NCBI RefSeq assembly: GCF_011008905.1
Contig: NZ_JAAIVI010000020.1
Location: 310,001-374,000, forward strand
Length of the DNA: 64,000 bases
From: Wenzhouxiangella sp. XN201
Lineage (GTDB): Bacteria; Pseudomonadota; Gammaproteobacteria; Xanthomonadales; Wenzhouxiangellaceae
Direction of reading: 5' to 3'
The translations under genes were made by a program, and so were the position numbers. Shown here piece after piece: positions 29,989-31,616 of the stretch. The notes under the pieces are model-generated. The model searched no databases. It was not told where the DNA came from and saw only the letters and a program-made list of their open reading frames with translations. How positions within the stretch are numbered: position 1 is the stretch's first letter; each line of letters opens with the position of its first letter.

Positions 29989-30029
29989 CGGCGGTTTTGC
30001 AACAACCAAGGCGTAGAGGCCACGATTCG

Positions 30030-30458
30030 ATGGCGAGTAAGATTGTCGATCTGCCGAAAGGCTACAAGCCCTCCGAGAAGGAGGAATACATGTGCCAGGA
30101 ACACCTGGAGTACTTCCGTCGCAAGCTTTTGCAGTGGCGTGAGGACCTGATCCAGGAGTCGCAGGAGACCATCAACAACCTGCGCGGCGAAGTGCGTGAC
30201 GTCGGCGACGAAGCCGAACGCGCCAGCCGGGAAACCGAAAACAGCCTGGAATTGCGCACCCGCGACCGCTACCGCAAGCTGCTCAACAAGATCGACCAGG
30301 CCCTGGCCCGCGTCGACGACGGCAGTTACGGCTACTGCGAGGAAACCGGCGAGGAAATCGGCCTGGCCCGTCTCGAGGCCCGCCCGAACGCCACGCTGTG
30401 CCTGGATGCCCAGGAGCGCTGGGAGCTCAAGCAGAAGCAGATGCGGGATAGCCGCTGA
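30030..30458 (+). CDS. dksA: DksA-type RNA polymerase-binding regulator with a two-cysteine (C/T/C/A) finger
   Basis: 142 aa from the ATG at 30030. DksA enters the RNA polymerase secondary channel and, with ppGpp, resets promoter choice. The long coiled coil carries the tip acidic pair D57xxD60 ('DVGDEAERAS') and 'SLELRTRDRYRKLLNKID'. The zinc-finger positions are Cys103, Thr106, Cys124 and Ala127 ('GYCEETGEEIG', 'TLCLDAQ'). Classical DksA has four Cys; this C-T-C-A pattern is that of Pseudomonas aeruginosa DksA2, which works without zinc. relA is also in the window. A strong terminator follows. Confidence 0.93.
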   Translation: MASKIVDLPKGYKPSEKEEYMCQEHLEYFRRKLLQWREDLIQESQETINNLRGEVRDVGDEAERASRETENSLELRTRDRYRKLLNKIDQALARVDDGSYGYCEETGEEIGLARLEARPNATLCLDAQERWELKQKQMRDSR

Positions 30459-30488: not shown

Positions 30489-30526
30489 GAAAAAGCCCCG
30501 CTTTGTGGCGGGGCTTTTCTGTTTTT
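30489..30526 (+). terminator. Rho-independent terminator of dksA
   Basis: Stem AAAAGCCCCGC (30491-30501) and GCGGGGCTTTT (30508-30518) around a 6-base loop, followed by a T-rich tail to 30526. It lies 33 bases after the dksA stop. Confidence 0.9.
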
Positions 30527-30544
30527 GGGGTTTTGGCACTGGGC

Positions 30545-30680
30545 AGTGTGGTGCTACCGCCAGGTTGGCGGGCCTCGACAAGTCAAAGGCGGTTTCGCCC
30601 GGCTTGCTTCGCAAGCTCTTTGGGCGAGGTACTTTTGTCAGTCGCGACAAAAGTACCCAAAAGCGCTCTTAGAAGACGCG
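30545..30680 (+). repeat. Structured intergenic repeat, copy A (three successive hairpins)
   Basis: Copy A shares its whole plan with copy B (30996-31133) on the other strand. Hairpin 1: ACCGCC-aggtt-GGCGGg near 30555. Hairpin 2: GCTTGC-TTC-GCAAGC at 30602-30616. Hairpin 3: GGTACTTTTGTC (30628-30639) with GACAAAAGTACC (30646-30657). A run CAAAAGCGC follows. No gene is predicted in it. It resembles widespread intergenic repeats with a GTACTTTT...AAAAGTAC palindrome in other GC-rich gammaproteobacteria (from memory, not searched). Confidence 0.75.
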
Positions 30681-30995
30681 GTTGTTCCGCAGGGCCAGAT
30701 GGCTGCGGGGCTTAACGGAGATTATGCTTGAGCCTTCGCGATGGCTCGGTCGTGAAACATGGCGTTTTCGATAAAGGCTTGGCGTTGCCCGCACCTAGAT
30801 TGCACGACTTCGATCGGGGTTGGCTTCGATTGAGGATGGTTAAAGCTCCTAGGGTGGAACGCTACTCGAAGTCGTAGTGCCAGATGCGGGCCGCTGCAGG
30901 CGTCATCGCAAGCCAGCATGTTCCTCAGCCGGGCCAAAGCAAAGCCCCAGTCACAGTCCGTGAAGCCACTCCCAGGCGAGGTTTTCGAAGCGTAA
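30681..30995. other. Non-coding or unassigned segment between two inverted repeat copies
   Basis: About 315 bases between repeat copies A and B. The longest open frame is 71 codons on the minus strand (30722-30937, TTG start), Arg- and Ala-rich, with no motif I recognise and no clear ribosome site. I see no terminal repeats of an insertion sequence and no transposase motif. It may be cargo of a small mobile unit bounded by A and B, or simply spacer. Confidence 0.5.
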
Positions 30996-31133
30996 CCGCC
31001 TGCTTTTAAGCGCGTTTTTTGGTGACTTTTTTCGCGCGGGAAAAAAGTTACCCGCCATCAGCCCGCGAAGCGGGCGGGCGGAACAGAAGTTGACTGGTCG
31101 AAGCCGCCAACCCGGCGGTAGCACCGCACAACT
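30996..31133 (-). repeat. Structured intergenic repeat, copy B (inverted relative to copy A)
   Basis: Read on the minus strand, it gives hairpin 1 ACCGCC-gggtt-GGCGGc, hairpin 2 GCCCGC-TTC-GCGGGC (31060-31074) and hairpin 3 GGTaACTTTTTTC with GAAAAAAGTcACC (31021-31051). An AAAACGCGC run follows. The order and spacing match copy A, and the stem sequences differ in ways that keep pairing. It ends about 60 bases before the sufE stop. Confidence 0.75.
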
Positions 31134-31196
31134 GAGCGGCGGCGAAGCTGACGAGCCAAACGCAATGGCTGCTTCGGCCGCCATCCCGACGGCCGG

Positions 31197-31616
31197 TCAG
31201 GCGCGCGCGAGCGCCAGCTCAGCCTGGCGCCGAATCTCCCCGAGCATGGCATTGAGCCCATTCGCCCGCGTGGGTGAAAGATGCTCACTCAGGCCGATGT
31301 CTGCGACGAATTGTGGCTGCGATTCGAGGATTTCGCGTGCGCTGCGGCCAGAGTAGACCTTGAGCAGCAGGGCGATCAGCCCGGAGACGATGGCGGCATC
31401 GGAGTTGGCGCGAAAGTCGAGCCGTTCCGCGTCCCCTTCGGTGATCAGCCAGACCTGCGACTGGCAGCCGGCGAGCAGGCGGTCGTCGGTCATCTCCGAT
31501 TCGTCGAGTTCGGGCAGCTTTCGCCCCAGGTCGATCAGGTACTGGTAGCGGTCCATCCAGTCGTCGAACAGGGCGAATTCCTCGACGATCTCGCGCTGGG
31601 CGGCCTCGATGCTCAT
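31197..31616 (-). CDS. sufE: Cysteine desulfuration protein SufE family
   Basis: 139 aa. SufE takes persulfide sulfur from the desulfurase SufS for iron-sulfur cluster assembly. The acceptor cysteine is in '[13 protein letters not shown]', about residue 51, and '[19 protein letters not shown]' is the family N-terminal helix. It overlaps cysS by 4 bases (ATGA), an arrangement that pairs two sulfur-related functions but may be chance. SufS is not in the window; it could equally be the CsdE paralogue. Confidence 0.88.

Follow-up and report, generated by a model that had tools for sequence, protein, structure and literature searches.

Several findings have been revealed in the present analysis of the window, which is the whole stretch of 64,000 nucleotides of Wenzhouxiangella sp. 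XN201 DNA considered here. First, the two structured repeats described in an earlier sequence-only reading (copies A and B) belong, as its inverted arms, to a single non-coding foldback element of ~607 bp at positions 30535-31141. Second, the element consists of inverted arms and a core at a genome-specific spacing, and its stems carry compensated changes. Third, many of its slots between genes are shared by different species, while its sequence is genome-specific, its orientation at shared slots is random and its copies are mosaics. The parts of the window copy and its neighbours are as follows.

29997-30458, plus strand: flanking ORF, dksA-like
30535-31141, no strand assigned: whole foldback element, ~607 bp, with ends from the alignment of 44 flanks
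30535-30574, plus strand: left tip with stem 1 (GTGCTACCGCC/GGCGG region), from the repeat search and the end alignment
30568-30680, plus strand: arm A, 113 nt, the segment modelled by covariance model R1 (129.7 bits)
30595-30627, plus strand: stem TCGCC/GGCGA around hairpin 2 (30602-30607/30611-30616)
30628-30657, plus strand: hairpin 3 of arm A, 12 pairs
30709-30967, no strand assigned: core, with closing helix GGCTTAACGGA (30709-30719)/TCCGTGAAGCC (30957-30967) and no ORF of 80 aa
30995-31109, minus strand: arm B, the inverted copy of the arm
31021-31052, minus strand: hairpin 3 of arm B, 13 pairs
31053-31080, minus strand: stem CGCC/GGCG around hairpin 2 of arm B (31061-31066/31070-31075)
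31197-31616, minus strand: flanking ORF, sufE-like, convergent to the dksA-like ORF

The repeat search recovered both arms at the positions claimed for them and as inverted copies of each other, with the outer tips (30546-30571 and 31104-31129) forming an inverted match of 26 nt at 92% identity. The three hairpins that the arms were said to have in common, in the same order, were confirmed, and stem 2 reads GCTTGC/GCAAGC in A and GCCCGC/GCGGGC in B, exactly as had been described. The sequences given for stem 3 were also correct, but its length had been underestimated, as the helix comprises 12 pairs in A (30628-30639/30646-30657) and 13 in B (31021-31033/31040-31052). The ~315 bp that the repeats were thought to bracket indeed contain no ORF of 80 aa or more, but they are not separate filler, being aligned end to end in 26 full copies; the view of two repeats bracketing something has thus been replaced by that of a single element formed by the A-B pair and its middle. 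A gene in the core was ruled out at the ORF threshold of 80 aa. The ends of the element are defined by a conserved GSCGCTRG-like motif that lies, on either side, ~40 nt beyond the TCGACNNGTCA anchor, and since this motif is imperfect in the window copy, the boundaries given above are accurate to a few bases. A terminator-like hairpin of the left flanking ORF adjoins the left side of the element; the two flanking ORFs are presumably dksA and sufE.

The changes in both arms of a stem had been taken to suggest that structure is maintained, and this proposal was supported by a test of 57 pairs, assigned to seven helices on the basis of the window copy, across an alignment of 42 copies from three genomes (25 from G000, the genome of the window, 14 from G017 and 3 from G011). 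The alignment omits L022, which has a run of N, and the G017 loci L130, L137 and L142, so that 14 of the 17 loci L128-L144 were used. Standard pairs were observed in 93.2% of 2306 pair cells, compared with 85.5% after shuffling, and 16 of the 57 pairs were changed on both sides, compared with 11.1; neither value was reached in any of 500 shuffles, although the counts refer to cells (sequences) and not to events, and related rows may exceed shuffles even without structure. The number of further pair types showed no excess (28 versus 27.2 shuffled, reached in 215 of 500 shuffles). When the partners were slid by 1-3 columns, pairing dropped to 40-49%, a comparison in which the structure, being taken from the window copy, has an advantage over the slid ones. 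A fold predicted afresh from the same alignment comprised 90 pairs, 22 of which retain a double change. Among the standard pairs of the arm stems, a two-sided change was counted in 149 cells and a one-sided change in 15, and 104 arm-stem cells were unpaired; the corresponding counts for the core helix were 14, 26 and 52. Support for the fold is weaker at the core-closing helix, with 86.9% of cells paired and one of 11 pairs changed on both sides; by eye, GGCTTAACGGA/TCCGTGAAGCC of the window is represented by GGCTCCAGAA/TTCTGGAGCC in G017 and GGCTTCAGTATT/AATACTGAAGCC in G011, the alignment being gapped at this place. In the consensus of G000, G017 and G026, the whole element folds back, and in that of G063 chiefly the arms do so. 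By eye, the inverted symmetry of some copies in G010 and G017 (L093, L054, L138, L128) seems to continue outside the arms in further shells with TTCGTTC-type runs, and a GTCCCGGACGGAGCG...CCGGGAC hairpin flanks L054 on both sides, as if the palindrome grew outward layer by layer.

The reading as a structured, dispersed and non-coding unit is supported, and neither of the outcomes named beforehand as refuting it (a lack of further copies, or copies without preserved stem pairing) occurred. Its own genome (22 contigs, 3.13 Mb, 97.9% complete) contains other copies, with 52 matches to arm A, itself included, a recurrence that is far beyond chance. Twenty-six full-length copies, including that of the window, were aligned, and the other 25 are 81-90% identical to the window copy. 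A 27th, more divergent copy (74%) was found at C22:194996-195552, along with several partial copies, most of them at the ends of contigs, giving ~30 element places in all. Six contigs (C13, C15, C17, C18, C19 and C21) start or stop inside element copies, and because the assembly breaks at the element, the copy number is a lower bound.

Beyond this genome, DNA matches were observed in 9 of 61 genomes, the own included, and the plasmid and phage records contained no DNA match to the element. A covariance model of the arm (R1, built from 43 arms), the check proposed together with the sequence-only reading, matched 15 of the 43 genomes of the family, again with the own included, when 87 candidates were scored per genome. 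Class-wide, with 10 candidates scored per genome, at least 14 of 370 genomes (own included) matched R1 at 1e-5, and this number is a lower bound. The distance between paired arms is typical of each genome, ~541 bp in G000 and 585 bp in G017. In G063, 20 of 23 arm matches form ten inverted pairs of 498-700 bp, and in G026, 12 of 13 form six such pairs of 577-656 bp. G026, a genome in one contig, has a core sequence of its own, and four of its six pairs lie between minus-strand tandem genes. Inverted arm pairs of the same shape recur in other gammaproteobacterial families, with 12 of 19 matches in six pairs of 598-629 bp in G140 and 6 of 17 in three pairs of 535-570 bp in G161, the remaining arm matches of these two genomes being unpaired at the threshold used. 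The core is similar within a genome and hardly alignable between most genomes.

The positions of the copies were compared between species using tblastn, with the flank proteins of the 30 places in G000 searched against the element loci of eight other genomes. The flanks were taken as probable orthologues from these matches, and flank matches of ~25-46% identity were read as paralogues and excluded from the shared sites. For 17 of the 30 places, one or more of the other genomes carry an element next to similar flanking genes, and 12 of the 17 G017 loci (L128-L144) share their slot with G000, 10 of these 12 with both flanks matched. By chance, ~0.2 shared loci would be expected with an assumed 2900 slots (P ~7e-22), and P would be ~2e-6 if only 150 slots were possible; the loci were fetched by element similarity and not by flanks, and therefore the overlap is not built in. 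In a tree of CysS and SufE, much of the remainder of which lacks resolution, the carriers G000, G003, G010, G011 and G017 form one clade (support 100/98). G027 adjoins this clade (91/95) and has two DNA traces, a half element and a relic tip, both of which sit at slots shared with G000.

Slots are also shared outside the carrier clade, though more rarely. At L021, an element is present in G063, which belongs to another genus, one arm in G034 and a relic element in G027; no arm was found there in six genomes of the genus (G003, G008, G009, G018, G019 and G026) or in G061 and G062, with G011 and G014 left out of the count. At L038, the element occupies the slot in G011 and G017 and also in G003, as judged from a contig that begins in the element, with no arm in G009, G018, G019, G026, G027, G034, G061 and G062 and with G022 and G063 left out of the count. 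The gap between dksA and sufE contains the element in G000, G010 and G011 and only 9-186 bp with no arm in G003, G008, G009, G019 and G022, whereas G017, in which the contig ends, was left out of either count. Slots that are empty in relatives mean that the element has been gained or lost. At L036 (1465-2233), the slot is filled in G000 between a plus-strand and a minus-strand gene, and the matching G011 gap (L050 235-281) measures just ~46 bp.

Shared position keeps almost no memory in the sequence. The median identity within a genome was 0.856 for G000 (325 pairs) and 0.890 for G017 (120 pairs), and that between G000 and G017 was 0.732 for same-site pairs (11) versus 0.723 for other pairs (54 sampled from 416, with L130 omitted as short). 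Likewise, the orientation relative to the flanking genes was kept at 6 of 12 G000-G017 sites, L130 being marginal (137 versus 135), and at three of the four examined G000-G011 sites (six are shared), one of these pairings having been corrected by hand because the gene order puts that G011 locus at site L036b and not L036a. With 9 of 16 kept overall, orientation at shared sites is as good as random. The copies are also mosaics: for five block markers in 25 G000 copies, all four combinations were found in 7 of 10 marker pairs, a count that excludes m2 with m3, whose flag only reflects a three-variant marker, and the hairpin-2 form of 14 of the 25 B arms also occurs in 5 of the 25 A arms. Dispersed copies thus seem to exchange sequence, opposite arms included, and one such process can explain both the homogeneity and the flipped orientation. 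The lone half element of G027 (L047 1986-2248) is 81% identical over 265 nt to the window copy, above the 73-74% observed for the same part between G011 and G000 copies; such closeness would be expected from a slower change of single copies than of families that are homogenised.

Herein, we propose that an old non-coding foldback element occupies fixed intergenic slots and is homogenised within each genome by copy-to-copy conversion, an explanation to which we give about an even chance of being correct. An ancestor of the Wenzhouxiangella clade would already have had these slots filled, and most would have been passed on by descent. During replication, the long imperfect palindrome, when single-stranded, might form a hairpin or cruciform and might then be cut, for which we take SbcCD to be the obvious candidate enzyme, and the cut copy would be repaired by recombination with another copy. 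Since one arm repeats the other in inverted orientation, the donor could pair either way, and conversion would homogenise the sequence and randomise the orientation at the same time. In other words, we favour slot inheritance together with ectopic conversion between palindromes, probably started by the cutting of a hairpin, perhaps by SbcCD. Several observations count against parts of this explanation. Inheritance requires losses, as G003 has an empty dksA-sufE slot where its close relative G010 has a filled one, and L021 is armless in the six genomes of the genus and filled in G063; empty slots among relatives also fit re-insertion into preferred slots. Conversion would leave orientation random, and yet all seven tandem copies in G000 are oriented with the flanking genes; as only two of three are so oriented in G017 (and one of one in G063), the G000 co-orientation is not relied on here. 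The unpaired arm-stem cells and a pair-type count within the range of the shuffles speak against the fold, and the greater stability of the plus strand in 14 of 16 G017 copies against strand neutrality.

A tentative alternative, which we consider on the unlikely side, is site-targeted transposition, in which a MITE-like element is mobilised in trans by a site-preferring enzyme (e.g. one acting just behind the terminators of particular genes) in lineage-specific bursts. Because some slots require several losses under inheritance, re-insertion is a serious rival, and both processes may operate. Random orientation and genome-specific sequence would be explained, as would the filling of L021 in another genus while six relatives within the genus are armless there. 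The placement of the copies is also consistent with such targeting, since the element starts shortly behind the dksA terminator in three species (by eye) and the 25 G000 copies with both neighbours called comprise 14 convergent, 7 tandem and 4 divergent ones, according to a crude codon-usage caller trained on the window, some divergent calls of which overlap the element. Convergent placement is enriched in G000 compared with the gene pairs of the window (14 of 25 versus 9 of 51, Fisher P 0.0009), and was observed for 6 of 10 G017 copies with both neighbours called. In G063 it was not clear, with 2 of 6 copies for which both called neighbours are near (3 of 8 counting far ones); the value of 1 of 6 in G026 indicates that the preference is not general.

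Against site-targeted transposition, a very narrow target choice would be needed to account for the shared slots, even with only 150 of them available. No target-site duplication was detected in 12 single-module copies, where the longest left/right match averaged 4.4 nt versus 4.6 nt after shuffling, although old insertions could have lost it. The link to a REP-associated transposase (RAYT), a search for which had been proposed with the sequence-only reading, was rejected for G000: a search of 61 genomes for PF01797 (Y1 transposase), the one transposase family searched, gave no match in G000, G003, G010 and G017. The other six of the 10 element-bearing genomes among the 61 possess PF01797. The copies are 79-92% identical to one another, with no sign of a fresh burst (G000 copies are 8-21% apart), and the shuffling of blocks requires recombination anyway. 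With neither a RAYT nor a target duplication found, the mobility of the proposed non-autonomous mobile unit is a conjecture.

We regard as rather doubtful the broader idea of a gammaproteobacteria-wide superfamily of ~500-650 bp foldbacks that persist without a transposase of their own, as homing palindromes that are cut because they fold and are rewritten from their sisters either way, so that at fixed chromosomal slots the family would undergo concerted evolution in the manner of a dispersed ribosomal DNA.

It is improbable that the element represents a structured RNA from 3' regions, the transcript of which is under selection as a terminator, RNase III substrate or CsrA sponge. A gene 3' end lies on at least one side of 21 of the 25 G000 copies, which would suit a transcript, as would the seven co-oriented tandem copies, and in 14 of 16 G017 and 4 of 6 G026 copies the more stable fold is that of the plus strand, which counts against a DNA-level reading; the corresponding value in G000 is just 13 of 26. 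Members in G140, from another family, and in G210 match the Rfam family TwoAYGGAY above threshold, but the matches of the two halves in G140 fall on opposite strands, as those of a palindrome in DNA would. A selected transcript should favour G-U on its own strand, whereas G-U was no commoner than A-C at pairs predicted on both strands (42 versus 73 cells in G000, 29 versus 26 in G017 and 21 versus 22 in G026). This strand-neutral variation favours a DNA-level fold or DNA-level copying, without amounting to proof. Orientation also flips at shared slots, and for the window copy the suggestion of a structured RNA was not borne out, as no RNA family was matched at the gathering scores; the single Rfam match in 30500-31200 (10.6 bits, E 4) was read as chance. 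Very improbable, finally, is an origin without selection, in which template switching in imperfect palindromes at replication rewrites one arm from the other, since the excess of changes on both sides of arm-stem pairs and its strand neutrality are as expected but the 104 non-standard cells show that unmatched single changes occur and persist, and the shared slots, the homogeneity within genomes and the constant architecture over genera are left unexplained, although such switching could act together with conversion in slots.

No description of this element was found in the open-licence literature searched. Term searches gave no mention of Wenzhouxiangella in the RepRanger paper and no repeats of this foldback kind in the paper on strain AB-CW3, and the sections consulted of the 2008 survey of stem-loop families contained nothing recognisable as the element. 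Group II introns of class C are strongly folded and have insertion sites behind terminators; the element differs in that no intron family of Rfam is matched in the window. TwoAYGGAY (RF01731) is listed as probably an RNA in the relevant entry of one report (PMC2864571) and, in a passage of another, is proposed to bind CsrA (PMC4333381). The core of the relatives in G140 and G210 matches this family, with matches inside element relatives at L173 1642-1984, L191 1629-1964 and L170 1602-1732, and differs from an RNA in the opposite strands of the matches in the two halves of one G140 palindrome. In the window, no TwoAYGGAY match was obtained at the gathering score, nor at E 5 in 30500-31200. Some of the catalogued TwoAYGGAY matches may be halves of a DNA palindrome.

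Palindromic repeats of bacteria are usually read as passengers of a transposase or as RNA hairpins. In the element these properties come apart, with position shared across species, sequence homogenised in each genome and orientation random. Bacteria thus offer a case in which the concerted evolution of dispersed non-coding DNA can be tested, and in which one can ask if conversion between copies is driven by DNA hairpins. Bacterial MITEs (NEMIS/Correia, ERIC and RUP) are described, in the parts of the sources that concern them, as non-coding foldbacks with terminal inverted repeats near genes (PMC2229807, PMC3733652) and a size of 70-300 bp (PMC3733652). The present element likewise has terminal inverted repeats, no coding capacity, a foldback structure and a position near genes; in contrast, it is larger (~607 bp), no target-site duplication was found and its slots are shared between species. 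With regard to ends shared with an autonomous transposon, no arm pair around a gene-sized insert was noticed among the arm matches listed, PF01797 being the transposase family searched. REP, REPIN and BIME sequences are, in the corresponding parts of the sources, intergenic, palindromic and genome-specific, occur in inverted pairs and have a reported preference for convergent or unidirectional gene ends (PMC3116915, PMC3733652), with short REP units of 20-40 bp (PMC3733652). The element resembles them in being intergenic, palindromic and genome-specific and in its inverted pairs (20 of 23 arm matches in G063, 12 of 13 in G026), and differs in its arms of 113 nt with two hairpins, its core of several hundred nt and total of ~607 bp, the lack of a detected RAYT in G000, and slots that are shared between species with homogenised sequence. 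As RAYT, size and target duplication all fail, the element is filed under neither REPIN nor MITE. These two are the nearest known kinds, and thus the type of the element is familiar, whereas its behaviour over species is not.
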